Origin: Liolophura sinensis
Taxonomy: Eukaryota; Mollusca; Polyplacophora; Chitonida; Chitonidae
Direction: 5' to 3'
DNA: 64,000 nucleotides
Assembly (NCBI RefSeq): GCF_032854445.1
Contig: NC_088297.1
Coordinates: forward strand, 11,060,163 to 11,124,162
This document shows, piece by piece, positions 4,335-61,534 of the stretch (the stretch's first letter is position 1; the number at the start of each line of letters is the position of its first letter). The translations under genes were made by a program, and so were the position numbers. Under the pieces are notes generated by a model, which worked only from the letters and a program-made list of their open reading frames with translations, was not told the DNA's origin and searched no databases.

Positions 4335-4480
4335 TTTTGTTTGATATGTGTTTAACGCCGCATACTCAAAACTTTTTCACCCCTGTATAACGGCAATCAG
4401 GTTTTACTTCCTTTCGCCAGGCACTTTACCTACCTCCAGACTAAAGCCACAGACGAAACAACGAGTACCGGATTCGAACA
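4335..4480 (-). mobile_element. diverged SINE-A-like remnant
   Basis: GTGTTTAACGCCGCATACTC matches the family's tail domain on the minus strand, and CCGGATTCGAACACC further on looks like a tRNA B box. Between these the body is hardly recognisable, so this could be a different tRNA-derived family. Confidence 0.35.
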
Positions 4481-4924
4481 CCTGTACGACTAAAACTCGC
4501 TATGGAGAAATTCCATTTTGTCCAAAATTCATGCTCAGCATTATATTATGTGTCCTCCCCGGAAGTGCATCAACAACTGAAATGACCAATGAACGTGTGC
4601 AACACCATCCGTGATCACAAAGTAGCAGCCGCATCGCACGTGCAACGGTGAATATGCTTTAATCACAATGACATCATCCGATGACGTTGTGGCAAAAGAA
4701 AAAAAGAAAAAACGAATTTTCCACTTTGGATGAACATGTAGTTTGCTAAAATGAAGATGCGCGTGCCCTGCGCGTGTCTGCGCTTGATCATTCCTTCGTA
4801 TTCATGTCGTGCAGTACTCGTTTGCCTAGAGTGAGTATAAACTATCATTAAATGTGACAGTCATGTCAAATATCGTCTCAGTGATTCTATGAAAAAAAGT
4901 TAGTGTTTCGGTTATTAATTTATA
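4481..4924. other. intergenic, nothing recognised
   Basis: No open frame with a recognisable domain and no tandem repeat seen. Confidence 0.45.
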
Positions 4925-13148: not shown

Positions 13149-13361
13149 TCATTTTGGAAGTTCAGCTGTTTTCCTCTCGTAGCTTTCAGATGCGTAATGG
13201 CTAGAGCAGATACGGGTGTTTTTAGTGGGTACAAAATCTTTCCGTCTTGCGCTGTAAATCCACGTCGTCATCCAGGACAAATCGTCTAGAAACTTGAAAA
13301 AACTAACTCCTGGGTTCTTCGACAATCCGTTTTTACAACCGTCTGCAGAACAGCAAACCAT
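13149..13361 (-). CDS. THAP-type C2CH zinc finger, single short ORF or gene fragment
   Basis: From the ATG at 13361 the 70 residues begin M-V-C-C-S-A-D-G-C, the usual start of THAP domains, which lie at the extreme N terminus. Then come FFKF, a central Trp (SWMTTW), and the second zinc half CSSH in RICSSHYASESYE: C-x4-C ... C-x2-H. These are the zinc ligands and invariant Trp of the family, a DNA-binding finger found in cellular regulators and P-element-type transposases. The frame stops right after the finger (AELPK then TGA), before the expected AVPTIF end of the domain. I see no good donor before the stop, so it may be a truncated copy, a transposase remnant, or the first exon of an unresolved gene. 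An in-frame ATG at 13424 would add 21 residues. Confidence 0.6.
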   Translation of the reverse strand: MVCCSADGCKNGLSKNPGVSFFKFLDDLSWMTTWIYSARRKDFVPTKNTRICSSHYASESYERKTAELPK

Positions 13362-13804
13362 TTCGTGGAGAAATTCGATGTGCTTGTTGTCACTCTTGTA
13401 GCTTTTTGTTAACACTGAACCCAATGGCGAAGCTCCGACAGGTGGTAACGGTTGAACTTGTATAGCGTAGTTCGGCGGCGACTACCGGGTGTTGGCGAAA
13501 AAAATGCATAAAAGCAGCCTCATTATCTGGTGATTTTAAGTGCCATATTACTCAGATTTATGTACCCGTTTTCAATGCTTGTTTACACTCAGTTTAACAA
13601 TATATACAGGGGTATCTGTTTATGAATAAATAGTAAATCTGTGCACTAAAGCTTTAAAAATGTGCTGTTTGCGTTTGTGTTTGGCTTGGTCTGCAATTGA
13701 ACAATTTTACATTTGCAAACACGTGTAATCTGTCTTGATCAGTTGTTTATACATCGCGAAAACCATCGCCCTTCGCCATGATACTAACAGGCTGTCTCAC
13801 ATAA
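13362..13804. other. upstream region of the THAP frame, no gene supported
   Basis: Unannotated. A short GTTTATGAATAAATA patch near 13618 resembles the motif-dense block at 5037. Confidence 0.35.
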
Positions 13805-21160: not shown

Positions 21161-21907
21161 TAATGCATAGCTTATTGTAAAATGTATTACTTTGTCCGAC
21201 GATACCTTCACCACGAACTAGCAAGGCAGATTGTTCTGTTGGATAATGCATAGCTTATTGTAAAATGTATTACTTTTTCCGACAACACCTTCACCACGAA
21301 CTAGCAAGGCAGATTGTTCTGTTGGATAATGCATAGCTTATTGTAAAATGTATTACTTTGTCCGACGACACCTTCACCACGAACTAGCAAGGCAGATTGT
21401 TCTGTTGGATAATGCATAGCTTATTGTAAAATGTATTACTTTGTCCGACGACACCTTCACCACGAACTAGCAAGGCAGATTGTTCTGTTGGATAATGCAT
21501 AGCTTATTGTAAAATGTATTACTTTGTCCGACAACACCTTCACCACGAACTAGCAAGGCAGATTGTTCTGTTGGATAATGCATAGCTTATTGTAAAATGT
21601 ATTACTTTGTCCGACAACACCTTCACCACGAACTAGCAAGGCAGATTGTTCTGTTGGATAATGCATAGCTTATTGTAAAATGTATTACTTTGTCCGACGA
21701 CACCTTCACCACGAACTAGCAAGGCAGATTGTTCTGTTGGATAATGCATAGCTTATTGTAAAATGTATTACTTTGTCCGACGACACCTTCACCACGAACT
21801 AGCAAGGCAGATTGTTCTGTTGGATAATGCATAGCTTATTGTAAAATGTATTACTTTGTCCGACGACACCTTCACCACGAACTAGCAAGGCAGATTGTTC
21901 TGTTGGA
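21161..21907 (+). repeat. 83-bp tandem array, nine near-identical units
   Basis: Nine units of exactly 83 bp begin TAATGCATAGCTTATTGTAA at 21161, 21244, 21327, 21410, 21493, 21576, 21659, 21742 and 21825. Each continues through TTACTTTGTCCGAC, CACGAACTAGCAAGGCAG and TTCTGTTGGA. Only a few substitutions separate units, so the array is young or homogenised. The last unit leads into a MITE-A-like segment. Confidence 0.95.
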
Positions 21908-23987: not shown

Positions 23988-25231
23988 TCATTTAATATCT
24001 GTCTTAGCCCATTGGCTGGATCTGTGTATTCCAATAATAGAGCCGTCTGCCTCCAATAACGTCACATGTTTATCAGAACCAAGAAATGCTGATGTCATCT
24101 CCAGATCTTTCAGTTTCAATTTGACACGAGTTCCATATGTGTACTCACTGAAAAATCAAAAACAACTGAGATATATGATAAATGTAACGATTCAATTTTC
24201 TTCTTTCTGAATGTTTTCTGCTGGAGTTAAAAAAAAAAAAAAATTCAACGTAACCATGGTAACCATACTTGACGATATACTGAATGGCAGTAAAACTGGG
24301 GATTCAGTAGGGATTCAGCACACGCACTGAAAAAGGTTCTCACATGGAAACACAAGACTTATATTAAAAATTAATAATATAATAATAATAATTATTATGT
24401 ACATGTATGTCGCACTGGGTGGCTTATAACTTTTCAGCTCAATCATAAGTCACTGGGTCCAGAAAATGTAAGAAATTATTCAAAGCAGACAACAATTAAT
24501 GAGGAATTAAACTGAATTATGCAGAAAATAGTGTGTATTTGTGTGTGAACAATGGTTCACTGTAAATCTGACACATTCTTGTTGTCTACCTGATGTTTCA
24601 TAGTCTTTTTGCATTTATTAAGTTAGAAGTAGCACTCATCTAAAAATACTCTACATCACTGGCCCAGTATCTGATTCTATATTATGTTTACATGTCTGTA
24701 TTATGTTTACATGTACCTTGCTCGGTGTTTTGGTCTTGCACAAACGCAGTGAAATTTCCCCCCGAAATCAACATAGAGATCGTCCTCGACTACATCAATG
24801 ACAGTACCCAATACAATCCGCCCGTCAGGATTCCCAATCTGTGTCAATTTACAGTTTCGGATCAGACTGGCAAAGCTTTGTGTGTCTTCTGTGGCGTCGT
24901 CTCTTCCCATTTTATCTATTTTCTCAAAAGCTCTCATATAACTACTCTGTTCAGGCGTAGAACCTAAATGAAGATCACCAGCCGAAGATGAAGTATTGAC
25001 TGAGGCGATGTTGTTGTTACTACCGGTATCGTTCGAGTTCAAGATCTGATCTTGTTTTCCTGGGTCAGACGTTCTCCGGGCGTTATTACTTGCATTGTCG
25101 CTGTCACCCTTTGAAGCAATCGGACCGGTTGAATCAGATGTTGTCGACGTTGACAGTTTCAAAAAACATCGTGGATGTAAAACCAAATTTCTAAACGCGG
25201 CTATCCGCGTGCTGTACATGATGGCAGACAT
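23988..25231 (-). CDS. MRPS28: mitochondrial small ribosomal subunit protein bS1m (MRPS28), two exons
   Basis: Exon 1 is 25231-24717 and exon 2 is 24147-23988; joined they give 224 residues (human about 187). The donor CAAG|GTACAT and acceptor TTTTTCAG|T join in phase 2. Residues 1-35 lack acidic residues and carry Arg/Lys and Ser, as in a mitochondrial targeting peptide. A Ser/Asn-rich linker follows. From about residue 115 the S1-like core reads SFASLIRNCKLTQIG, GTVIDVVEDDLYVDFGGKFH and, over the splice, GTRVKLKLKDLEMTSAFLG, which are the family hallmarks. The protein is a structural component of the mitoribosome small subunit. It lies head-to-head with HDDC2 and the two probably share a promoter. 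The first ATG in frame (AAGATGT context) is chosen; an ATG four codons on is an alternative. Nothing broken. Confidence 0.95.
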
Positions 25232-25400
25232 CTTAATGTTGGCAACTAGTCAAATCCCCTGTAACAAACACAACGGTGAGACACGGATTTTCATTGGCTG
25301 ATCTCTGCCGGCAGCTGTCTTCCGGCGTTCAGACCGCGTGCATTTGTTGTTGGAAGAACGAAGACAAACTGTCAGAATTTATCCATCTTCAAACGTCAAA
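25232..25400. promoter_or_regulatory. bidirectional promoter between MRPS28 and HDDC2
   Basis: Only 169 bp separate the two start codons, so both 5'UTRs and core promoters lie here. I see an inverted CCAAT box (ATTGG, 25293-25297) and an ETS/NRF-2-type CTTCCGG (25319-25325), and no TATA box. ETS/NRF-2 sites are typical of promoters of nuclear genes for mitochondrial proteins, and TATA-less, CCAAT-bearing short spacers are typical of divergent housekeeping pairs. Start sites were not determinable. Confidence 0.7.
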
Positions 25401-28400: not shown

Positions 28401-31102
28401 GCCAGTCTTTAAATACAGTTTATTATCACATCTACCTTCTTCATGAAGGTGATCTCTACATGTGTAAATCCATTTTAAATGCTAGCTAGTGATTTGTTTT
28501 CATGTAGGCTGCCATGAAGTACATCTGCAGGTTAGTGAATCCAGACCTGGGGACAGAGCTGTACTCAATCTGGGAAGTGAGTTTACTTTAAAGAACACTT
28601 GAAAAGATATTATAAAATGAAGATTATTGTTGTAACTAAAAATGGAATAAGACATATTTGGTGTTTCTTGCTATCCTCTCTATTCTATGCAGACTTTCTG
28701 TCAGTGGTCGGAAATATTCAGAAATGACATAATTGATGAACATACGAGGACCGCAGGTCCAGCTTAGCGCCCCCAATTCAGGTTTTTCTCCCAACAAAGT
28801 TGTTTTGACAGCTATCATTGGTGACGTCACCACAGCAGTCAACTTCACTTCTGAACTGAACATCTTCAGAGGAAAACTGAAGTTTAAAGCAGTTTTTATA
28901 CCTCAAGAAGAAAGCTGAGAAGTTTTTTTTTTTGTACTTTTATATGTTAGGTCACATCATATACTCCATGTTAAGAAATAAAAATATAGCGTTTCATGTA
29001 TCCTTGAATTTATATCCTGTAGCCGTTCAGGATGGAGTCGAATCAAAATCTCACATGCCAATAAGGCCAGATATGCAGATCTTCACCAGTATGTACATGT
29101 ATATGTGGCTTGTCCTTCAGTTAAATTGAGGAAAATATGATCAAACTATTCTTTGACTTATTTTCATCTCTGTGTGATTATATGCAGCATTTGGTGGAGA
29201 CCATATGTTTAGATAATTTTTTGTTTATAAATGATGGCACAGTCAGTGGTGACTGAATTATATTTCAATAAATCAATGGTCAGTAAAATCAGTGCTTACT
29301 TCAGCCCTGCCATGTCTGCTAGCCAAATCAAAATTCTACTGGCATCAGACCAGCAGATCAGTTTTAAAGTTCAAGACCTGGTAGGAACATTTTTGTCACA
29401 TGGTGTATGAATATTTTGAATGACCTCAGATTATTTTAGGTGACCTCAGATTATTTTAGATGACCTCAAATCCTGCTGAGGTCTTCAGTGGACATTAAAT
29501 TTGAAACATTCGACATTATACTCGAACTCACATTTAAAAAGAACTAAATCCAAATTCTCAATCATTATTCTTTTGAAGCAGGGCAATGCTGGTGTATTTT
29601 AAACTTGAACTATTTGTGGCGGACTGTCCAGTGAATGTGTATTTATAAAGTTTTGTTGGATGATTTATTTATTTATTTGATTGGTGTTTTACTCCGTACT
29701 CAAGAATATTTCATTTATATGACGGCAGCCAGCATTATGCTGGAAGGAACCGAGAAGAGCCCGGGGGAAATCCATGACCATCTGCAGGTTGCTGAGAGAC
29801 CTTCCAACGTATGGCCGGAGAGGAAGCCAGCATGAGATGGAGTTGAACTCACAGCAACCGCATTGGTGGGAGGCTCCTGGGTCATAGCGCTACAATACTG
29901 CGCTAAACAACTGAGCCACTGACGCCCCTTTATTTGATGAAGTTTCCTGATTAATTTGTATCAGACTGTATGTCATTTACCATGTATTTAAATGTTTACC
30001 AGGAGTACGAGAATCAGACGAGTAAAGAGGCAGAGTTTGTGAAGGATTTAGATCGGTTTGAGATGATCCTCCAGGCTCATGAATATGAACAGGACGATCA
30101 GCAGAAGGTCAACCTTCAAGAGTTTTTTGACTCGACAAGAGGTGAGCCATTGAAACATTTATTTATTTTATTTGTTTGTTTTATGTATTTACTTATTTAT
30201 TTAGTTATTTATTAGATTGTTGTTGAGCTGTTATAATCATATAAACTTAAAAATTTGTCACTGGTTTGATGGCGACCAGTTTTATGGGTGAAGGAGTGGT
30301 CCAAATAAACCACTGATGTTTAATAACTTCCATATTTGTGGTTACGGATAATTCCCAGTTAGAGCATGCTCGTTACGCTGTCAAACCAGTGCCCTATGAA
30401 TCATACTCACGCTCTTTTGGCTACGATTTTAGGTCATGCCTTTTGTCAGGTAGCTGCTGAAGGCCGGTGGTTTACATCAGGTACTCTGGTTTCCTCCATT
30501 TGTAAACCATACCGTCTCCATGTAGGTGAAAAATTCTTAAACACAATGTTAAAAATAATGAAACAAATAAATAAATCATATGGTTCTTTTTATTTTAAAT
30601 ACACAGTGTATTCCTTGGTAGAACTGTAAATTACATGTATGTATACCTGTAGAAACAATAGACCATTTACATGTCAAAGTGTACATTAAAGTGTACAATG
30701 TACATGTCAAAGAGTACATTAAAAGTGTACATGTATCTCAAAGTGTACATAAAAGAAGAAATACACCTTCTGGAATAATATACCAACTTTAAGTCTTATA
30801 CCAGTGTCGGAGAAGGGTATGAAATTAAAAATTTGCAACTTTCCCTGTTCAAGACAGATTTACATGATGAGAAAGTCAAGAGAAAAATAAAATCATTAAA
30901 GCAATGATATCAGACAAAATATGTTTACGAAGTTTTTTGGAGTGGGAAATGTGCGAATATGTATCTGCAGTCATTATAAGCGTTCATTGTATGTTTTGTT
31001 CCAGGAAAATTTCAAACAAAAACTGTCGATGAATGGTCTAAAGGTTTAGAAGAGATAAGGAATTCATGTAAGATTGCATGTAAAGAAGATCCCACGAGTT
31101 GA
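25401..31102 (+). CDS. HDDC2: HD-domain 5'-deoxynucleotidase HDDC2 (YfbR-like), six exons
   Basis: Exons 25401-25460, 26815-26939, 27524-27626, 28508-28576, 30003-30141 and 31005-31102 all have GT-AG borders and consistent phases, giving 197 residues (human about 204). The protein removes phosphate from deoxynucleoside 5'-monophosphates, judging from YfbR relatives. Metal ligands are all present: H41 ([10 protein letters not shown]), H70-D71 ([13 protein letters not shown]) and D136 ([13 protein letters not shown]), with spacing as in Escherichia coli YfbR (H33, H68/D69, D137). Other landmarks are VGQLK, RTGWV, the [13 protein letters not shown] segment and FFDST near the C terminus. Exon 1 encodes 20 residues starting at the ATG in a CAAAATGG context. 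SINEs sit close on both sides of exon 5. An AATAAA 644 bases past the stop may end the transcript. Confidence 0.95.
27715..27775 (+). mobile_element. SINE-B head fragment in HDDC2 intron 3
   Basis: GTTGTCTAGTGGTAAGAACA followed by CAGTCACTGGGGACACATGA matches the head region of SINE-B at 10928-10990. The B box and body are absent. Confidence 0.5.
29425..29478 (+). repeat. 20-bp triplicate in HDDC2 intron 4
   Basis: GACCTCAGATTATTTTAG(G/A)T is repeated twice, with a third partial copy GACCTCAAATCC. Confidence 0.75.
29659..29930 (-). mobile_element. SINE-A copy, full length, 72 bp upstream of HDDC2 exon 5
   Basis: Complete minus-strand copy: (TTTA)n, GATTGGTGTTTTACTCCGTA, body with AGCCCGGGGGAAATCC, GAGTTGAACTCACAGCAACC and an inverted head ending GAGCCACTGACGCCCC. 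Its head end lies 72 bp from the exon 5 boundary, inside the region where the branch point is expected. Confidence 0.9.
30150..30375 (-). mobile_element. strongly diverged SINE-A copy in HDDC2 intron 5
   Basis: A TTTA-rich tail starts within 15 bp of the exon 5 donor. GATGGCGACCAGTTTTATGG then GTGAAGGA keeps the family's GACGGCGACCAGCATTATGG core. The rest is hard to follow. Confidence 0.5.
30440..30577 (+). mobile_element. strongly diverged SINE-A copy in HDDC2 intron 5
   Basis: CTGGTTTCCTCCA, then GTAGGTGAAAAATTCTTAAA and a terminal AACAAATAAATAAAT follow the family's order with heavy substitution. Confidence 0.5.
30660..30755 (+). repeat. GTACATTAAAGTGTACA-type short repeats
   Basis: Four close variants of AAAGTGTACAT within 95 bp, spaced about 20-28 bp. 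Small degenerate array in intron 5. Confidence 0.6.
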
Positions 31103-44081: not shown

Positions 44082-47000
44082 ATGGTTTCGTGCCTGGTAA
44101 ATAGAAACCGCCTCAAACTTGTGGACAATGGAGATTTCCAATACCTTCGGGATTACATGTTACAATACAACGTGTTTTTTCCAGACGAAGTGGAAACTAT
44201 GGAGAGTAAGGGAGAAAGGCGTAGGATTATGTCTGCGTAAGTATATTTCAATACAGCGGAGTATGCCAGCTATCATGAGTGCCATATAACCGATCATATC
44301 GCATTGCAGGACAGATATTGTTACCCTGTGATTCTGGGGTAGACCATATATAGCCTAACACAGAAGTTTAGATTAGTTTGAAACATCCAGCTTGTATGTC
44401 CATTCGAATGAAAGGCAAGAATTTCTGACCACCGTTCGTTTAATGAGCCACGACAAAAGATGGCAATGACAGTATCGGCATGCACTACTGCTTGTGTAAG
44501 CAACATTTAAAGGACAAGACCAACGCATTTTGAGTGGGCAGGAGTTGTTTCTAGATGCTTTTTTTATGACAAGACCTGCATTCACTTAAATCAGTTTTAA
44601 TATAAGCGATTAACTAACTCATTTTTAAAACGGAAGTGACGCACGTTGTGTATGTTGGCAGTTCAACAACAACATAATTCTAATGTCAGCTTACATGCAT
44701 TTTTAGTCGCACGCGTGTGACGATGAACTAACGTGCCACACAGTATAGAGACACACCCATCCCTGGCAGAAATGAGACAAGTAGCAGTTTTTACGATCAC
44801 GTGACATGGGGATTTACCTAAGATACGTCTTCACTCTGTAGGTCGGGTACATGCATGTAGGTCGGGTATATGTATGTAGATCGGGTATATGTACGTAGTA
44901 ACTCATACATTCAGGTGCCCAACGACACTGACTATATAAATACATTCTCAGGTGGGAAAGCTGTTGTGACTTAAGCCATGGAGCAAGGGGTCGTGTAACT
45001 TGCTACTGTTAGGTAGCTAGAATAAAACACTGACTGAGGTAAACTGACAAGAGGTCGCATTTCACCCGTTAGGCCTACGTCCAATATTGGACTCGCTAAA
45101 GCAGAGTTTAACTCTGGATATATGTATATTTCAATCATTGTGGTTGCATATTATATTTTGTGTATATATGGGCGTAACTCCATTACTGTTTGATTGATAA
45201 TGTCAATATAGTATTTGACATTTAATAGTTGTTGCTACAATTATAAGAGATCGGGTTTCTTGTAAGTACTATTTTTTTCAGCATGAATGTAGATTATCAT
45301 AGTCACTTGCTGTTTAAAAGATAATAATTGGTAACGTTTTAAACAGTAACATTAGCTGAGTTTTTATTAGGTCAATTCTTGTGACCTAGATTTTGTTGTT
45401 AGTTCCCTTTTATTGGACATTTAGGACAAGAAGTAACCATAGTTTTATCCTTGAGATCATTCTGAGACTGGAATAGGGTAGTGAATGGTGATTCTCACGT
45501 AGAAATAGTCTTGAACGTCGGTTTATAGTAGGATTTGTGCGGTTATAACAACGACATCGGTCGAAGAATTTAGCATTACGTTGTTGTTGTTGTTGTGGAT
45601 ATTCCCCGGTTGTAAACTCATGGCAATGCTTTCTTTGAAATCTAAGTGTTGTGATTGATGAAATATGGTTGAGTATGTAGTAGATATACTCTAGGAAGCG
45701 TTTGATAGCAGTACTTACTCATGATGGCATCGTTTTAATGTACATTTTTCGTGAAGTTTACCCTTGAAAATTAGGTCCTACCGTTTTCTTAACCATCCAT
45801 TTTGCGCGTAAGCAAGTTTCGTGCATATGATAATTTTTATGCATACATCGACTCTTGTAGATGTGAGATAAGCTTTTAAATTAAAATCATGGATAAAGGG
45901 AATTATTACGTCTTTTGGTGATTTTCATTGTTGACTTTTTAAGGCAACAGTAAATGACTTGAGAAGGTTTAAACGTTTGGAGAGAAAACCCCATTTTCCA
46001 CGTCAGTGATAGTGATATTATTTTAGGTTTGTGATTGACGTGCAGCTGTTTTGTTGGTTAGCCAATCACATAGCGGGATTCCGTACTTAAGCTCCGCCTA
46101 CTTTGTTGAAAATGTATAAAGGGAGCATCAGCGTGAAAACTGATGAGATGATCTCGAAGGCCGAACACTAGACATGGTAGGTATCTGTGCTAAAGCCAAA
46201 ATTTAATCTAATAACTCAGTAAAAACCTACCATAAAGTGTTGAACAAGTGGTGCCAAACCATTTTGGTGAATTCATAAAAGTTGGATGCCATTAGATGTA
46301 GTCCTTGACCGATGCTCAGCAAAATGGTTCTGTCGTCTGTCACAGCTAAAATTCCCTAGTGCATATGCACTAGGATCCACGGACGATAGGTTGATGGAAT
46401 CAGCCGGTGAAGAATCTCTAGTGAAATTTCGGCAGTGTTAAACGTTAGTGTGAATGGAGTCTCTGTAGCCACTAGGTGAAGTATCAAGAGTGCAGACGCA
46501 CTAGGACCCACAGGAAATACATTAATGGGATCGGCCGATGTAGAATCTTTCTAGAGGAAGTTTCGGCAGTGTTTAAACGTTAGTGTGGATAGAGTGTCTG
46601 TAAATACTAGATGAAGTATTAGGAACTGAGGAGCGTCTGGGGTAATAGGCTCACCATAATGATATGTAGTGCTGTGTTTTGATGAATTAGAAACACCACC
46701 ACATCCCTGTCATCAATCTACTTGAATATAGGGGAAATAAAACTGTTGTTGTTCAATGATGAACTAAACATTCTGTCTGGACCTTCATCAATGCATATTT
46801 ATTTCACCACTGGAATTCATGGTTTTTCTTCAGTCTCTAATATGGCCGTCCCGATTATTTAAATAAGGAAGAATCGAATATACCTGGAACTTAAAATCAT
46901 GTCGCGGTGCCTCTTCAAGTTTGGTGTAAATGCTTACATCATCCCATGGTTTGTACCAAACTTCACAAGGCGCTATCAAAGGGGGAATGAGTTCACGAGA

Positions 47001-50000
47001 ACTGGTACTCACCATAGATTTTCAGAGTGAAAAGGAAATGTAATTGCTCTACACTTGAACAGTGATAAGGAAGAATTACCCGCGACAATATGTATATAAT
47101 ATATATATATTTACAATGAAAGCTCAGTACGGAAAAAAAATTGTATACGTGGTGTCCACGTTGTCAGTCCGATTCGACGTGCCACGTGTTGAGTGTGTGT
47201 CACCATGTCGTAAAGGTAAAAGCACTGACATGAGTTTATCTGTTCAACATCTTAATAAATATCCCACAAACGCTCGGTCATATATATACGATATGACTCG
47301 CAAGACAAATTTGGTTTCAAAAACCAACCTCTTATAGATTTGAGAAAAAGAAATGTTAATCCATGCATGTAAAATATTCATTAGGCCCATTGTTAGCGAC
47401 AAATACTCTTCAGTTGGCCTATTTTATCGGATATACTTCTTGCGTATCCACCATCAGCGCATAGCGGATAAGCCTTCGAGTTACACTGTAGACGATTTGT
47501 CACTATGAGCGGGTTTGTCGTCAGCATGATCAAGATTGGGACGATTTCCGGTTCGTAGCTGCAATGAAATCCTTTACTGAGAATTCAGTATTATGCTACA
47601 ACAGACTGTATTTATTAAAAGGAAGTGTACAGAAGCGGAATATTTAGATTTTGCTCTGATACTACACACTATCTAGTCACATGGACAGGCGAACACACCA
47701 TCAAATTTGAACCATTCATCTCCTTTTCCAGTCTCTTAATTGCAGATATATGAAAACAAAAAACAGTTACTAATGTATTGTCTCGCCGATCCTTATCTCT
47801 TTGTAGGTGTGTGGACCGTCTTTATCAGAAGCCGCCCGAAGTGATTATGAAGTTCTTTAAAGTTCTGAGAGAAGCGGACAAACATCTTCACGATCAACTT
47901 GATTTAAGAGTCCCTACAATACGTCAACCTCCTGAAAATTCCGAAGACAGGATAGTGGCATTTGCCCTTTCTTTAAATGGTACATCTAAGCCCGTATTTA
48001 TCAAACGACTTATGACTTAAGTCATAAATTGCAATTGCTTGAAAAGCCAAACTCAGAAAAGGAAAGAATTCAAATTATGGTTGGTACATCGTTCTGCTGC
48101 AGAAAATTAGCGTACGTATTGTAAACTTTACAGAACAAAACATTTCATTTGTAACCGCATGTGCTTGAATTTTTGACTTGAATTTTTAAGACTCTTGATA
48201 AATTTAGCCCCTGGACTACGTTGTTGTTGTTTTTTTTCTCATGGAATTGTAAGACAGCTCCCTGCATTGAAACGAAACGACTTCACAGTGAAGTAGTTTG
48301 AAGTGAAGATTCAGTCTAACTTTAGTCCAAGATAGTCTAACTTAAGTCTAAGATAGTTGTGTGATCCTGAGGCGAGTATAACTTTTTTCTTCCTTTCCAT
48401 TTGCGGAAGTACAGCCACAGCTATCAAAGGCCAACAGTCGCAAAGGTATGTCTTAATGCTTGTCATAAATATCGTCGAATCGTTCCAAAATTTATACGTT
48501 TCCTTTATGGCAAACTGTGTAGAAACAACAACAGAATTCAGTTCCACTTCAATATTTTGCCAAGATTTTCGTGTCAAGTTTATCAAGAATCACACAATAA
48601 ACAGGTAAATGTTGGTATTTGCTCATATGCCTAGACGTGTTCGGATCGTGTATGATAGATCATTTCGGAACAAACCTTTTTTGAAAACAAATTCAGCCAG
48701 ATGTCCGAAATATGTATATTACATTTGCATAATTCTCTCCTCCTATCCCATACCTCTTACGTAAAAGGTTGGCAAATGGTTCACATATGAATCTGCGATG
48801 TAATGTCCCTCTGTGCGCAATATTATAGTCGTGGAAATAGTTATGAAAAGAAACAATAAAGTGAAATTACTGAATTCCGAAGCCCCCCTATTTTTGTTGC
48901 AGTATGTTTTATATTATATTCTTTTTAAATTGAAAAGGATAAAACGGTAAACTGAAGTAAGAAGTAATCATCAGTAGAAATACCATTGGAAAGCTTATCT
49001 AAAAATACCTTTAGTTGTGTTTTTAGATTTGTTTTCACTGTATTAAATGTTGTCAAATATATCACGCCAACCATTTTCTGGACATAAAACAGGTATTTAA
49101 AAGTTTCGTGTACAGGCACTAATTACACATATCAAAATTCACACGAATATTATTCACACCGTAACATATAAAACTGTAGGCAAAAGTGCGTCATCACTGT
49201 CACTTTATCATTATAACCATAAAAACTACTTTCAGATTTAATTCTGTCAAAAAATCTAACAAAGTAAGTATATAATAAGAAGATAATTTTGATAAGATAT
49301 TTTCAAATGTAGTCTTTAATGATCGTTCTACTGATGTTTACTTCACTTTAAATGGTTGTTTCCATTTAAACAATTTAAGTGTCGAGAGCAAATATATCTT
49401 AAATCACCAAAAATCTCGTCCATGACTAACTTGTCTAATTTTCATGATTCTGGGAGTTCTATGAATTTTAGAAAGATGTTTTGAGGTTTACTTGGAACAT
49501 AGGGTGATATTCTACTGGAAATTTTTTAGTTTTGGCACCAAAACTATTTTGTGGCCTTTTTTTGCCAGTCTAAAAATGCACTTTTGTGGGCGAAATTTTA
49601 GATCATTTCGGGCTATAAACATACCCGTCCCATCAAGCTATTCTCACATGTTCCTAGGGGGCCTCCTTGGCTCAGTTTGTTAGCGCGCTAGCGCAGGATA
49701 ATGACCCAGGAGCATCTCACCACTGCGGTCTCTATGAGTTCAAGCTGGCTTACTCTGCGGTCGTACGTGAGAAGGTCATACCAGCAACCTGCGAATGGTC
49801 GTGGGTTTCCCCCGGGCTGTGCCCGGATTCCTTCCACCATAATGTTGGCCGCAGTCGTATAAGTGAAATATTCTTGAGTACAGCGTAAAACACCAATGGA
49901 ATAAATAAATAAATAAATAAATAAATGTAGCTCATATTCTCTTACATATATATTTCATAAAATTAATCTGTTTTAGATTAACGGGACAAAATGAAAAAGT

Positions 50001-53000
50001 TTACGACTACAATGTGAGTATGACGAACAGTTAAAAGAGGCCTTGATCTTATGACTTCGGTCGCTTCAGTGGCCTAATGATTTACCCGACCAGGGATCAA
50101 ACAAAAACACTTTAAAAAATGATACTTATTGTTGCCTCGCCTGGAGCTCAGCACTGAGAGTTTAGAGCAAGGAAACAGGGCTGATTAGCCCGGTGTCAGT
50201 ATAATGTGACTGGGTGGGGTGTCAAACTTTGGCAGTACTATCACCTTGCTATACAGAGACATAATACATATATATGTACTCACACTTAATGACTTCTGAT
50301 CATCAGATGGTTGAAAAATGTTAAGTACGACAGGAAACCTCAAGAATACATCCATTCATTCTTGTCGCTTTGTTCTGGATTTATTGGAAAGGAAATATAT
50401 CCACTTTCAAAGTGACATTTGAACCCCTTTCAAACCCTTAGATGAATACTAGTTCATGATTAAAAAAGTAAATTGTGTACGGAACCGAAGACACGAGACA
50501 TGACACTCAACCCTGTGACATTATAATGATACCGGTCCAACCAATCCATTTTACTGTCTTTAATCTCTCAATGCTGAGCGCCAAGCGAGGCAGCAGCAAG
50601 AACCATTTTTATGAACCGAACCGGGTTTGATCCCATTTCTCAAAATATCGAGGCGGACGCTCTAACCTCTAGGCCACCGGTATGGTCCACTTTTCAGCAG
50701 ATGACCCTGTCTGCCAAAACCCTGTATTTGTGCCCTCACTCTCTCTCTCATTTTTTTCTCACAGCATCTCAAGATGTGTCTACGCCCACTTGCAACATGC
50801 ATTTACAGTAGATACACACGACAGATTTTGAGCATCCATACAATCTTATTACTACTCTCTAATCTAATTTACATCATTTTAATTTCAAAGACAATATACA
50901 GCAACAGGTGTTCCCAAATACCCACCATTTAATAATTATTTTCAACTCTTTTTCTTCTCAACGTAATGATCTAACGTAATGAAAACCACATTTCCAAGTA
51001 ACTACATATTTCACTTTTCCTTTCAGAACGACGAAAGGTCAGATGTGAAGGTCACAATAATGCGGAAATCTTCCGAATTACAAGGCTATGAACATAGGAG
51101 AGAAAACAAATTAATGCAATATTTCAATGCCGTTGGGATTGAAGAAACGGGCCAGTTCATACATTTGAGAGTGTATCAAATACATCGGTTAGATTTTGTC
51201 AAAACGGAAAGAACGTACAATTTGGGAAATGTCATCAAAAAGAGTAAGAACAACTATTGGATTGTTAGAGATTCCACAATTGGTCTTACCGGCAGTTCGT
51301 GTGAAAATTTTGAAGTGGCAAAACTGAACTGCCCTCTTCTACCAGAGGACGAGTCCGGTTTCAGGACACTGGAGGAGGCACTGGAATCGTACGAAAGGTC
51401 AACCGTTACAGTAAAGGTGGCACAGGTGAATATTTTGTTTGATCCCAGGATATTGTTAAGTTCGCTTTGAATGATACTTCGGAGGCCTCTGTGGCCGAGG
51501 TGATTGGCACGCCTGCGCGTCAATGACTCTGGAGCCCTCCCATCTATGATGTCAGTTCAAGGCCAACTCATGCTGGTTTCGTTTCCGGCCATACGTGGGA
51601 AGGTCTGCCAGAAATTATGGATGGCCGTGGGTTTCCCCAGGTGACCAGTTTATTCTAACCATCATGGCTGCAGCCGTCGTAGAAGTGAAATATTCTTGAG
51701 CTCGGCATAAAACACCAATCAAATAAATAAACAAACTAAACATGCTTCTTGACTGAGCATTTGAAAAGTTAAAAACTGTTACTCATTTGACATGACTCCA
51801 TACCTGCATCAACATTTGTGAATTTCTAACTACATAACTACATTTGCACATTTTATTGTTGTTCGGCTACTTTTAATATTTTTGTACTGTTACTTTATTA
51901 ACGAAACAGCTAATCTAATTTCATTGAAAATAACAGTTTGGAACAACATGAATTACAATCAAAGATCATGAGTGTCGATGTCCCTGAGCAGCAACATTTG
52001 CTAGCAATACAACATAACACACATGTCTGCTCGAGTACATTCAGAGAGAGAAGGTAAAGTCGTTCAGGTAATCGCGTTTCAGTCGTTGTGACATGTACCT
52101 TATATTCCATGTCTATCAATGACGGCCGAACCCAAAACTATACACGAACCACAAGCGCCTTGCGCACTCATTGTTTGCTTTCGTGATTCTTGTGGAATGG
52201 GTTTTCGCGATATTTATTTTATTTGATTCATTTGATTGGTGTTTTACGCCGTACTCACGAATATTTCACTTATACGACGGCGACCAGCATTACGGTGGGA
52301 GGAAGCTGGACAGAGCACGAGGGAAACCCACGACCATCGGCAGTTTGCTAACACCTTCCCACGCACGCCCAGAGAGGAATACATTTTAAGCTGGACTTGA
52401 ACTGACAGTGCATTCACTGGGATGATAATTTGAATTCGTGGAATTGATTATCTCCCTTGCATGTTTATATTGCCCTCTTGCTACATCTAGCTAAAATCCA
52501 TCTTCTCAGATCCTATATTCTTGTGTCATTCCCGTCCACAGGTTTCGCCAGTCAAATATCGAGACAATTTTCTGGCAATAAGAAGCTTGTCCGCCAAAGA
52601 CTCTAGTAACAAAACGGTGAAAATTGACTTGTTTGGTAATCATGCAGAAAAAAATTATGCTAAGAATGATGTGGTGAAATTAACGAGTGTTTACAAGAAG
52701 GTGTACCGAAACAGAATACAGCTTAGCCTTTCCAAGACATCAGATGTTCAGGTAACGTTTTACATTTTTAGTTTGAGATTTGAATTTGTAAACCTCCCAT
52801 CCCGATTACATTCAAGGTTTCCGAAGCAATGCAAAGAGTATAAGAGTAATCTGGGTTTATTCATTACCGGAAGGGTTACAGCACGTTCCAACAAAACGAA
52901 TATCGCCTCCATGCACCGAAGAGTTTCGTTGCACTCAGCGCATATTATTACCTCCCTTTAATACTCCACATGGCACTGTGATGACTATGCCGACTTTACC

Positions 53001-55382
53001 AGTTCCTATTTACATTTTGACCAAATTACGAAAATTAGCACAAAAGGAGAAACATCTGTATATTACCAACCTTTAGAAATGATATATTCATATCTCAATA
53101 ACACAATGTTGCCGACATGGTGCATTTAATAGATCTTTATATCCTTATGTCAGGCTTCTGGTCAGGGAAAAATGTGTACAGTTTCAGAATTGATCATTTT
53201 ATATCTGGAGAAGTGCCCAACAAGTACAATAAATCTGTTTATTTACGATCTGTTGATATTGATTTAGGGTTTTGAATCACGGAATAAATCATAATAGGTC
53301 AGGGTTGTTATTTCACGTTACCTGTCTGAAATATGAGTATTAACAACCGTAAAATATGAACATGTTTGTCAACTTTGAACAGATGAAGGAGATTTGTGGT
53401 AAAAAATTTACATTCGCTGATCAAACCAAATGTTGTTTACTTACCAACTTTTAGCTCACAAAATTGTCTTTCTTTTAGTAATCTGTTACACATGGGTAAA
53501 GAGAATTATTCCAACATTCGATATCGTGATTAGAGTCGGAAAAACTTCCTGTGACGTCAGAGTCCCTAAACTCTTATAATATGGACCATTAAGCCCACCA
53601 TAGAATTCAAATGATTGAAGGCCTTTAACTCTTTTCACACAAATCTATATAAAATAAATGAAGGTATATGTATGCATAGTTTGAAATGGTTTATGTAGTG
53701 ATACCTGTTTTGATTTTTAGAGGTCTTTTCCTTTAAAGGGATACAAAATCAATGTTGATTGGCTCACAGTGAAGATAGGCTTTTAAGGGTTAAACTCTAC
53801 AGGATTAGTCACGCTTCAATAAATCTACCATAGCTAAAATTCAGCTCAGGTTAGGCATAGCCTGGACTTGCCTATCTCTTACACCAACCAATCATAAACG
53901 ATTCTATATTCCTTTAGGCTGCACCTTAATTTATACTTATCAATTTTTAAAAGTCTTTTTAGAAATGTATTGGAGTAATCAGTTACATGTATTTGCCACA
54001 TTGCAACTGCTTGATGAAATATTCTATACCTTACAGTATTTTACAGCTTACGGAATGCTGAATGACACTATTGTGTGGACAGAATCATTTGCTTTGTAAT
54101 TTATTTTCAGTTCATGCCTCCTGAGAGCTTGCAAATAGCAATCGGAGACGACGATTATCTTTCCGATAGTGATTTCGAGGATACACCACTGGACACATTT
54201 AAAATCACGGAATGTCTGGGGTGCCACATCTACAACTGCTGTGATAAACCAGGTGAACGTAATACTCACAGCGCATGTGTCGCTACTCTCGCTTTACATT
54301 GCTGCTGGCACTAGCATACTCCTTATGGGGCATTTGTCCCTCTCTTCCCTCGCTTTACATAACTGTCACCGATACCATACTCCTTACAGCCCATGTGTCA
54401 CTCTCTACCCTCGCTATACCACTATATCACTGCCACCGATACGGACAAAGACCCCCATCACTACTTCCGTTTTTCGGTACGAATGTAATTCTGTGTATTT
54501 TAGGGTGTAAAGTCTTTTTTTTTGCTGCCAGCCTGCTGTTTTTGGTGTACAGGTACATGCTTAGTATCAAAATGCTGGAAATTGTGTAAGCTTTGGGCAG
54601 GTATCAGCAGGAACAAAACTTGGAAGTGCTGACAGTGATGTAATGGTATACAATGCCAAGGTTTTGGAGCCTGGGTCACGCTTGAGAACTTTATCCCTTA
54701 CTTACTTAGTTAACGCGATGACAACCACTTATTATATACATACGCATTTTAGCCTAAACAATCAAGAGTATAATTTTGTAATTATTATCACTTCCATTTC
54801 TTGTCAGAAATGCTACTGGTCCCAACTGTTTTATTTTTAATTATCGAATTACGTGCCTATGCCCATTTATCACGACAGTGCGCAGTTTTAAAGCTTTTTG
54901 CATTGACAATTCCAAATTCAGCATGTCTCATTCCTGATAGAATTTATTCAAGAATATTTCACTTATACCACGGCGACCAGCATTATAGTGGGAGGAAACC
55001 GGACAGACCTTCCCACGTACGGCCGAGATAGAAGGTAAACGTCCTCCCTGCAAAACATTTTATTTACTTTAATTTGTTCGATTTAATTTAAATTTCAGCT
55101 TGTTATGAGAAAAAGTTAAATGATGATGGAACGTGCCGGACGTGTGCCGAGCGCCCGGAAAGACAAATGAAGACGTGTCGGGCCACTTTTAAATACCTAA
55201 CAGAGGCCAGCAGATCTCCCATACAGATCACTCTGTTTAAGCCTACTCTATCCATACTCTTACAGGAGAATGTGGACTTGACCAGTTGGGATACTTTTGA
55301 AACACAGATTGCAAATGCTCTCCCGATTTGCTTCAAGTGTAAAATCAGTGAGGGGAAGTTTTACAACATTACAATGCAGTGA
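44082..55382 (+). CDS. CARD domain joined to RPA70-like OB folds with zinc ribbon; candidate nucleic-acid sensor
   Basis: Exons 44082-44236, 47807-~47993, 51027-51425, 52542-52751, 54111-54252 and 55099-55382 give about 458 residues. Exons 1-2 form a CARD (residues 5-85): NRNRLKLVDNGDFQYLRDYM, FFPDEVETMES, ERRRIMSACVDRLY and IMKFFKVLREADKHLHDQL. Exon 3 (115-247) holds a probable OB fold (QFIHLRVYQ, YNLGNVI). Exon 4 completes a second one: VTVKVAQVSPVKYRDN, VKIDLFGNHAEK, IQLSLSKTSDVQ. Exons 5-6 match the RPA70 DBD-C layout: C361-x4-C366-x10-C377-x2-C380, then ATFKYL and PIQITLF. Death folds recruit signalling partners and RPA-type OB folds bind single strands, so sensing of nucleic acid is inferred. 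The exon 2 donor is uncertain: CCC|GTATTT keeps phase 0, while G|GTACAT would require another exon. An acceptor abuts the first ATG, so a 5' exon is missing. Poly(A) signals follow at 55557 and 55798. Confidence 0.8.
44838..44900 (+). repeat. 20-bp tandem triplicate in CARD gene intron 1
   Basis: GTAGGTCGGGTACATGCAT, three close copies about 20 bp apart. Confidence 0.85.
45010..45060 (+). repeat. dispersed repeat, pair with 5850-5905
   Basis: AGAATAAAACACTGACTGAG followed by GTAAACTGACAA, nearly the same as near 5860. In intron 1 of the CARD gene. Confidence 0.5.
46367..46626 (+). repeat. ~130-bp tandem duplication in CARD gene intron 1
   Basis: Two copies starting GCACTAGGATCCACGG (46368) and GCACTAGGACCCACAG (46498), both with GAATC, TTTCGGCAGTGTT, AACGTTAGTGTG and ACTAG-TGAAGTAT in the same order. 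Copies have diverged noticeably, so the duplication is old. Confidence 0.85.
48035..48185 (+). repeat. dispersed repeat, pair with 23280-23400
   Basis: CTCAGAAAAGGAAAGAATTC, AAATTATGGTTGGTACATCG and TTGATAAATTTAGCCCC match 23296-23410 in order. It begins shortly after CARD exon 2. Confidence 0.6.
48186..49656. other. intron 2 of the CARD gene, nothing further recognised
   Basis: AT-rich. A possible 31-nt microexon (GTACAG|CCACAG ... GCAAAG|GTATGT, about 48414-48444) has reasonable borders but does not fit the phases of the neighbouring exons with the donors I can see. Confidence 0.35.
49657..49926 (+). mobile_element. SINE-A copy, full length, in CARD gene intron 2
   Basis: GGGGCCTCCTTGGCTCAG, GTTAGCGCGCTAGCGCAG, GACCCAGGAGC, GTGGGTTTCCCCCGGGC, GTATAAGTGAAATATTCTTG, then a long (AAAT)n. 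Confidence 0.93.
50130..50236 (+). mobile_element. SINE-C body fragment
   Basis: TTTAGAGCAAGGAAACAGG, GTGTCAGTATAATGTGACTG and GGTGGGGTGTCA match the inverted body at 56835-56915. Confidence 0.6.
50618..50690 (-). mobile_element. SINE-C head fragment
   Basis: Minus strand: GGGTTTGATCCCA reads as a B box and GACGCTCTAACCTCTAGGCC as an A box. Matches 56955-57010. Confidence 0.6.
50880..50930. mobile_element. MITE-B right-arm relic
   Basis: TTCAAAGACAATATACAGCA followed by GTTCCCAAATACCCACC matches the right arm of MITE-B at 35348-35389 with a few changes. The left arm is not found. Confidence 0.5.
51481..51739 (+). mobile_element. SINE-A copy, full length, in CARD gene intron 3
   Basis: GGAGGCCTCTGTGGCCGAGG, GCGTCAATGACTCTGGAGCC, GTGGGTTTCCCCAGG, GAAGTGAAATATTCTTGAGC, CAAATAAATAAACAAAC. 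It starts only 55 bp after the exon 3 donor. The central GGGCTCTGCCC is changed. Confidence 0.88.
52207..52425 (-). mobile_element. SINE-A copy in CARD gene intron 3
   Basis: GATTGGTGTTTTACGCCGTA, ACTTATACGACGGCGACCAG, ACGACCATCGGCAGTTTGCT, AGCTGGACTTGAACTGACAG. The head is truncated. Confidence 0.88.
53480..53765 (+). repeat. dispersed repeat in CARD gene intron 4, pair with 61535-61790
   Basis: About 280 bp collinear with 61535-61790: TCGTGATTAGAGTCGGAAAA, CTTCCTGTGACGTCAGAG, GAAGGCCTTTAACTCTTTTC, AATAAATGAAGGTATAT and AGGTCTTTTCCTTTAAA. Non-coding old interspersed element. Confidence 0.7.
54470..54580 (+). repeat. dispersed repeat, pair with 6030-6140
   Basis: TGTGTATTTTAGGGTGTAAA and GGTACATGCTTAGTATCAAA match 6055-6130. 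In intron 5 of the CARD gene. Confidence 0.55.
54940..55036 (-). mobile_element. SINE-A fragment with deletion, 62 bp before CARD gene exon 6
   Basis: TTCAAGAATATTTCACTTAT, CGGCGACCAGCATTATAGTG, then ACCGGACAGACCTTCCCACG joins two parts across the missing body. Confidence 0.85.
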
Positions 55383-60179: not shown

Positions 60180-61217
60180 TTATCTGGTGCATTCGAGAGG
60201 GTATGACATTAATGGTGATATAGGTGCGGATATGGGAACTATTCTGTTAGCGCAGCACGGGAAGCACATGCCTTTCAAAGCGTCTTTAAAATGCTTTACT
60301 ATGTAGCTATGCACAATATGGTCGATGCAGTAGTTCATTTGCAGCAGAGATACCAAACATTGTTCCACAACATTCATGATACCATTCGTTGAACCTTTCT
60401 TTTTTTCGGACGTTACATATAATGCCAATAAAGAAACTAGACAACATACAGCAAATACAACTAGAAGAGAGAAAAGTGTCTCGGACAGTTTTGTCTCTCT
60501 TATGTTTGTCAAATGTAAACTTAATGGATTCCGACGTACAAATTTAATGAGCATTCCATAAAACGTGAAAGTCATTGCACGTTATATTACACTACGCCTG
60601 ACCAATATCAGTTGGTGAGTCCGCCTTGTTCTGGTTACATCAGATATGGTGTTGCAGTTTTCAGTTATGACGTCAACAGGTCCTTCTACTAAACAGGCCT
60701 GGAGCACTATCATTGTTATAGCGAATGCCCATCCTACGGCAATGTACAATGCACTGCGTTTGCTACTGAACCACATGTTGTAGACAGGCCTGGCTTTTGT
60801 AGTGAGGAAATACCGGTTGCAGCTTATGAGGTACTGTGCTTGCATAGATAGATGGGCAAAGAAAAAGATCCGTATTGCTTCTAAATAACAGGAAACACTA
60901 GACACTGATCCGGCTTTCACAGTGAGGCTCCAGGGGATAACCAAACAGCAAATCAACATGTCTACAAACGCCAAATAACAAATGAGATAGTTGGACATAG
61001 TCTTTAGTCTTATGTCCTTGAAAAGGCAAAGAATAAACAATAAATTGCTCAGTGTTCCGAAAATGGATATGCAGCTTCCCATTACAATAGGTACGATTAG
61101 CTCCTTGAGAAATCTGTTAGCTGTCGGTATGTGGATGCGTAAATCATTTGTTGTCGCATCCGATGGATTGGACACCACATTGGAGGGACTGGACACCACC
61201 TGGTCAGCGTTCATCAT
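60180..61217 (-). pseudogene. rhodopsin-class (class A) GPCR with one in-frame stop
   Basis: A single frame of about 345 codons covers seven membrane segments but is cut by TAA at 60584-60582. Seen: TM1 FGTLSNLLFILCLF (G-x3-N), TM2 YLAFVDMLICC (LAxxD type), the TM3 Cys (SVSCYLEA) and SCNRYF in place of D/ERY, TM4 with Trp (VGWAFAI), an extracellular-loop Cys (TENCNTI), TM5 end TFTFYGMLIKFV, TM6 ETLFSLLVVFAVCC without the usual CWxP, and TM7 with DHIVHSY in place of NPxxY, then a Cys pair (FPCC) for possible palmitoylation. The stop falls about where the conserved TM5 proline belongs, next to two unexpected Arg. A receptor gene recently inactivated is most likely; a sequencing error is possible. 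TTCCTTTCAG just before the ATG at 61217 suggests a 5'UTR intron; an upstream ATG at 61316 is less likely. Ligand unknown. Confidence 0.75.
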
Positions 61218-61226
61218 GACTTCGAT

Positions 61227-61534
61227 CTGAAAGGAACACCGCTGATTAGATGTATCACGCCGATATGGGATAGTCGTTAAAGTCAAAAAGCCAAAATATG
61301 AAGTAAGGTTCATCATAAGGATAACTGAAAACTATGGATGAAAATACTTTCACTTAGTTTTTTCACATTTTATAAAAGTGTTGAAAGGCATTCAAATATT
61401 TGAATACTATGGTGGGCTTTATGAGCCATACTGGCGGTATGTAGGAGTTCTGGCGTCACATCGCCATTCTTTCTTGATGTTGACCAGAAGAAAAGAATTG
61501 TTTGGAACATTATTTCAGTAATGTTTTACTGATT
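61227..61534. other. region upstream of the GPCR, no feature supported
   Basis: Probably 5' intron or promoter of the receptor gene. No upstream exon recognised. Confidence 0.35.

Follow-up and report, generated by a model that had tools for sequence, protein, structure and literature searches.

Do the CARD exons and the RPA1-type OB-fold exons that follow one another on the plus strand of contig C3 of Liolophura sinensis form a single gene, or do two genes lie side by side? The initial annotation had read six exons here as one possible AIM2-like receptor. We analyzed the surrounding stretch of 64,000 nucleotides (C3:11060163-11124162, hereafter the window) within a genome of 609 Mb in 632 contigs. 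All six plus-strand exons were located at the positions claimed for them (Table 1). GT-AG borders and matching phases were confirmed for E1/E2 (2/2), E3/E4 (0/0), E4/E5 (0/0) and E5/E6 (1/1), but not for the E2/E3 join, where the best sites that keep the CARD clash in phase. Read in frame, E3-E6 encode an uninterrupted 344 residues across GT-AG introns.

Table 1 Features of the window (positions counted from its first nucleotide).
Feature	Position	Strand	Content
E1	44082-44236	+	CARD first half (MVSCLVNRNRLKLVDNGDFQYLRDYMLQYNVFFPDEVETMESKGERRRIMSA), last codon split
E2	47807-47979	+	CARD second half and tail, up to donor AATG|GTACAT, phase 1
E3	51027-51425	+	OB1 and start of OB2; acceptor TTTCCTTTCAG strong, phase 0; donor CAG|GTGAAT, phase 0
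E4	52542-52751	+	Remainder of OB2 (RPA1 DBD-B-like)
E5	54111-54252	+	Acidic linker and first cysteines of putative zinc ribbon (CLGCHIYNCCDKP)
E6	55099-55382	+	Other ribbon cysteines (ACYEKK...CRTC), C-terminal OB-like segment, stop TGA
THAP domain exon	13152-13481	-	
Tandem copies	21290-21850		Period 83 bases, from the spacing of repeated chance matches
Mitochondrial ribosomal protein exon	24710-25249	-	PF10246
HD-domain protein exon	29955-30212	+	PF13023
Interspersed repeat	49658-49954, 52123-52389		Examples of an abundant repeat with recurrent translation, seen at several other loci
Rhodopsin-family GPCR exon	60585-61331	-	

The splice-site scores used here were built on assumed splice frequencies. 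On both strands of the window, E3 and E4 were the only exons to pass cut-offs that were chosen after these two had been seen (acceptor at least 5.5, donor at least 4, at least 200 nt open), and no exon passed them in 20 first-order Markov windows (0/20, one strand each). Weak sites also occur at other exons of this locus (E6 acceptor, -0.2; E1 donor, 0.0). As the ATG of E1 lies directly 3' of an acceptor-like CAG (site score 2.9), a 5' exon is probably present upstream; a search for a conserved exon 5' of E1 found none, and its matches looked like interspersed repeats. If E2 is left unspliced, it stays open until a stop at 48018-48020, giving a CARD-only product of 122 aa.

The "convincing CARD" of the initial annotation was borne out by a Pfam CARD match of E1 plus E2 above the curated cut-off (PF00619; E = 3.1e-8, 34 bits vs a cut-off of 23.9, profile positions 4-82 of 85). 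A profile from six CARDs matched CARD8, BIRC2, NOD1 and caspase-1 in the PDB, and APAF1 CARDs more weakly; a weak library match on the CARD (Catalase-rel, 0.089) was taken as chance. Searching the genome with E1 and E2 (E<=10) yielded 12 matches: the two exons themselves, four further matches elsewhere on C3 (11.137-11.140 Mb and 11.168-11.169 Mb), another four on C1 (64.93-64.99 Mb), and single matches on C2 and C6. Leaving out the C2 and C6 matches, we read five paralogues (L015, L016, L019, L020 and L022), all of which share the two-exon CARD split with the window copy (5/5). In four of them (L015, L019, L020, L022), the CARD is followed by a linker exon and then by a P-loop open frame of 662-675 codons. 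The L015 frame, the only one scanned, contains a NACHT (Pfam, 6.9e-21). Judged by homology and exon structure, the window CARD belongs to this local CARD-linker-NACHT (NLR-like) family, a kinship that is new here and was missed by the initial annotation. Two neighboring genes, one coding for the CARD alone and the other for the OB module, are therefore a real rival to the single-receptor reading.

The closest paralogue of the window CARD is L016 (62% identity), followed by L015 on C3 and L019, L020 and L022 on C1 (35-46%). Neither the linker nor a NACHT was found in about 40 kb read downstream of L016. In the window, there is no P-loop ORF of at least 40 aa, and a NACHT search at E<=1 gave no match downstream of the CARD; the best match (E = 0.089) lies at 4386-4556, far upstream, and a further search gave one chance-level match at 0.68. 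The NACHT 3' of the CARD that characterizes an NLR-like CARD-NACHT receptor is thus absent from the window copy, in which the NACHT part is lost or was never present, and a NACHT remnant after the CARD was rejected for want of a downstream match above chance level. The window CARD nonetheless appears to be under purifying selection: dN/dS against L016 is 0.23 (dN 0.29, dS 1.30; NG86, 89 codons), and the comparisons with the other four paralogues are saturated.

Several further features of this family were recorded. The conserved linker exon, of about 50 residues, separates CARD exon 2 from the P-loop exon in L015, L019, L020 and L022, and has the pattern LxxxQTELxxWYKxxLSxLxPIPW...LDHVFTNL; two copies scanned against Pfam gave no match at E<=1, and it could be an element peculiar to this NLR-like family. 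At L020:1540 and L022:1406, the CARD exon starts without an ATG, so a coding exon is probably located further upstream; a search for it found none. Downstream of the NACHT-less L016, an 842-codon open frame (L017:2946-5474) is possibly a mobile element, its first 371 residues matching no Pfam family above cut-off. C3 also carries a duplication of roughly 11 kb, with the same EF-hand-like frame at L027:5389-6054 and L028:7006-7548 and shared neighbors, which adjoins retroelement-like frames (domain names assigned by eye).

For E3-E6, the clearest relationship is that of OB2. The whole module matched REPA_OB_2 at 0.0099 and OB2 alone at 0.00069, with 20 bits against a cut-off of 27; in a whole-genome REPA_OB_2 search the OB2 exon reached 19 bits (E = 0.56). 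In NCBIfam, the module matched a model of replication factor A best, and after it two models of single-stranded DNA-binding proteins (0.0027-0.024); an unrelated ATP synthase gamma model (0.032) and a STAS match on OB2 (0.072) were taken as chance. Using hhalign with this genome's RPA1 and a fungal RPA70 as reference (60 shuffles), OB2 aligned with DBD-B at a score of 25.7, which none of the shuffles equaled (0/60), compared with 17/60 as good for DBD-A and 38/60 for DBD-C. The whole module aligned at the same place with a score of 25.1 (shuffle maximum 23.1, n=60). OB1 scored best with DBD-A and zinc/OB with DBD-C, in each case the top raw score being with the collinear RPA1 domain and neither being significant (16/60 and 15/60 shuffles as good, respectively). 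The ribbon cysteines (C-x4-C...C-x2-C) are in register with the DBD-C zinc ribbon. OB1 alone and zinc/OB alone matched no Pfam family, the window exons were not among the matches of a Rep_fac-A_C genome search, and AlphaFold2 without an alignment gave no usable model (pLDDT 31.6 for the module, 34.5 for OB1 alone).

The profile searches that the initial annotation had proposed thus placed the CARD above its cut-off and OB2 below that of REPA_OB_2, and left the window exons out of Rep_fac-A_C. Its RPA70-like OB-OB-zinc-OB order held for OB2 by score, and for OB1 and zinc/OB by domain order and cysteine register only. By these alignments, OB2 is kin to RPA1 DBD-B, although below the Pfam cut-off, and E3-E6, which a genome search at E<=1 recovered at this locus alone (5 candidates scored), would encode a single-copy divergent RPA1-type protein with an OB1, a DBD-B-like OB2, and a zinc ribbon with a third OB-like segment, the folds of OB1 and zinc/OB being predicted. 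Such a protein would be expected to bind single-stranded DNA or RNA. Two known genes were considered for the module and rejected. RPA1 of this genome maps to about C10:861-868.5 kb, and an N-terminal OB of MEIOB type to C1:14.06 Mb, so the window module is neither; in addition, the window protein has no PF24903 (OB_MEIOB_N) match. Elsewhere, a weak Rep_fac-A_C match (20.9 bits) on the minus strand at L029 (C8:43.93 Mb) adjoins an open frame that runs off the locus after 757 codons or more, and may mark another gene whose zinc OB resembles RPA DBD-C.

Whether the two modules are joined depends on the E2 donor and the E3 acceptor. E2 contains 13 GTs, of which the best that keeps the CARD whole is the phase-1 donor at 47979 (score -0.6), a score reached by 12.8% of the 3,932 GTs in the window. 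The donor is also in phase 1 in all four of the five paralogues in which it was read (L015, L016, L020 and L022), and in L016 it lies at a similar place. Nine family donors, of E1 and E2, scored between -1.5 and 7.2 (omitting a second L015 E1 donor reading at -3.6), and the -0.6 of the window compares with 5.7, 7.2 and 1.2 for the E2 donor in the three NACHT-bearing paralogues scored. The E3 acceptor, in phase 0, scores 6.8, a value that 4 of 3,522 window AGs attain. The phase-0 donors of E2 that follow the CARD core score -7.2, -4.8 and -4.4, which is at chance level (46.7% of GTs reach -4.4). The 458 residues of the initial annotation fit a donor at 47993 (114 + 344), which scores like a random GT. 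A further phase-0 donor at 47840 (-0.0) lies inside the CARD, and splicing there would cost the domain its conserved last third. On the acceptor side, the nearby sites compatible with phase 1, judged from their distance to E3, are 51043 (-10.8), 51085 (-2.4) and 51103 (-12.7), and that at 51085 would drop about 20 residues of OB1. No exon with both sites above 0 bridges phase 1 to phase 0 between E2 and E3. With lax cut-offs there were 20 candidates, the best sum belonging to a microexon of 11 nt (50765-50775; acceptor 6.7, donor -2.7). Together, the phase clash, the chance-level donors and the lack of a bridging exon speak against a simple fusion.

An E3 acceptor of this strength needs some coding exon upstream. 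The 48.0-51.0 kb interval contains a single ATG exon with a phase-0 donor above 2; it looks repeat-derived, since it weakly resembles a frame close to L016 (E = 0.065), and the OB gene is therefore left without an evident start of its own. The strong acceptor and the lack of a better OB start favor the presence of a coding exon somewhere upstream. The tail of E2 bears on the same point. As protein, the part before the donor is marginally similar to L016 (91/2000 shuffles scored as well), unlike the part behind the donor (1801/2000). This hints, in protein only, at onward splicing of E2; at the DNA level the tail gave no signal (469/1000). We also looked for OB exons beside other members of the CARD family. 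None were detected near the paralogues, including within about 40 kb downstream of L016, or in the 86 kb downstream of the window that holds the C3 CARD paralogues (at E<=5; two chance-level matches, 2.2 and 3.0), and genome searches with the CARD and OB exons found no second locus that ties both modules together. The claim of one AIM2-like receptor was therefore not demonstrated: no in-frame join with good sites keeps the CARD whole, and the nearest relative of the CARD has no detectable OB exons.

Two real coding modules stand side by side on the same strand, and on this evidence we lean slightly, from near parity, toward two adjacent transcripts, a CARD-only gene (E1-E2) and an RPA1-like gene (E3-E6). 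The CARD-only protein would modulate CARD filament assembly by the neighboring NLR-like receptors, and the E3-E6 product would act as an RPA1-like ssDNA-binding protein. This arrangement agrees with the match of the CARD exons to five paralogous CARDs, four of which continue into linker and P-loop ORF, with the shared phase-1 donor of E2 set against a phase-0 E3 and no good bridging exon, with the single occurrence of the OB exons and their absence from the downstream 86 kb, with the self-consistent frame of E3-E6, and with the constraint between two CARDs, those of the window and L016, that both go without linker and NACHT. It has to accommodate, however, the E3 acceptor that demands an upstream exon while the OB gene shows no start, the position of the CARD exons only 3 kb upstream of E3 on the same strand, the onward splicing hinted at by the E2 tail, and two in-frame routes, one weak via the microexon and the other, from 47840, at the CARD's cost.

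The rival reading is one gene encoding a CARD-OB-OB-zinc/OB receptor, which we regard as somewhat less probable yet a serious contender. In its favor, the modules share a strand and the 3-kb gap is comparable to intron 1 (3.6 kb), no convincing separate exon was found to serve the E3 acceptor, the CARD is constrained though NACHT-less, and the grafting of death-fold domains by exon gain and exonization has been described for lophotrochozoan RLRs (PMC8998645). In such a receptor, the RPA1-type module would bind exposed ssDNA (viral, retroelement- or damage-derived) so that molecules align on the strand, and the aligned CARDs would seed a filament recruiting a CARD caspase or adaptor, as in the logic of AIM2; the CARD itself would come from the neighboring NLR-like family via exon duplication. 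Against a single gene stand the phase clash at the best CARD-keeping sites, the phase-0 donors at chance level after the CARD core, the nearest paralogue without detectable OB exons and the lack of a second example in the genome. A full reading of this kind, in which an NLR-family CARD was grafted onto a divergent RPA1-type module to give a receptor for ssDNA (or RNA) that signals via its CARD and arose independently of AIM2/IFI16, is offered tentatively. It is improbable that E3-E6 alone is a working gene and that the CARD exons are what is left of an NLR-like gene yielding no working transcript: the missing downstream NACHT and linker exons would fit, as would the E2 donor, which scores lower than its counterparts in three NACHT-bearing paralogues, but the open frames, the GT-AG borders and the dN/dS of 0.23 against L016 do not. 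To any other explanation we give next to no weight.

What follows differs between the two main readings. Fused, the exons would represent a second, independent invention of a death-fold-plus-OB DNA sensor, which would probably recognize single-stranded DNA and would have diverted an RPA1-type module from genome maintenance to immunity; a novel CARD-plus-OB DNA sensor is possible. As separate genes, they would mean that NLR-like CARDs persist without NACHT under apparent selection, and that a single-copy divergent RPA1-type gene, distinct from RPA1 and MEIOB, adjoins an NLR-like cluster. RPA and Rad51 have been reported to draw short ssDNA out of the cytosol and into the nucleus (PMC4895045). 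In the open-licence literature, we found no description of a CARD with an RPA1-type OB module, which is no proof of absence, and the available text of a survey of death-like domains mentions OB folds only for bacterial systems (PMC8195603). External sequence searches gave 8 stretches of viral contigs that matched a pattern, none of them a relative, no match in phage genomes, three weak PHROGs matches (best E = 0.007) taken as chance, and a single PDB chain of no use (1wev, E = 0.47).

Among known systems, the CARD-NACHT genes of the same genome share the homologous CARD and its split with the window copy but have linker and P-loop exons, which the window copy lacks. The OB-OB-zinc/OB order is that of RPA1 (RPA70) DBD-A/B/C, and OB2 scores with DBD-B; OB1 and zinc/OB, in contrast, are not significant, and the locus is separate from that of RPA1. 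MEIOB has an RPA1-like OB-OB-OB layout; its locus is likewise separate from the window module, and OB_MEIOB_N is absent from the window protein matches. Apaf-1-like proteins combine a CARD with NB-ARC and WD40 and are not known to have OB folds. Apaf-1-like molecules, death-fold ATPases, have been reported as DNA sensors in species from lancelets and flies to mice and humans (PMC11747288). In the SAMD9 family, some invertebrate and fish members are reported to combine an OB-fold with a CARD, Death or Pyrin domain; these have a STAND-like NTPase and TPR core, however, and their OB is nearest to cold-shock proteins, not RPA1 (PMC5445408). The cited study detected no PYHIN genes in monotremes or outside mammals (PMC3458909), and no PYHIN orthologue was identified in Aplysia in the reported comparison (PMC9334734). 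In the window protein, HIN (PF02760) was absent at E<=10, filters dropping most matches above about 0.1, and a genome search for HIN gave none over cut-off, the best (16.5 bits) lying elsewhere. OB1 may resemble HIN OB1 by eye, a likeness not used as evidence. Membership of PYHIN was rejected, as there is no HIN-200 and the N-terminal death fold is a CARD, not a Pyrin. AIM2 and IFI16 are nevertheless alike in joining a death fold to tandem OB folds, if the window exons are one gene, and the window differs from them in its CARD instead of a PYD, in having no HIN match and in its added zinc/OB.
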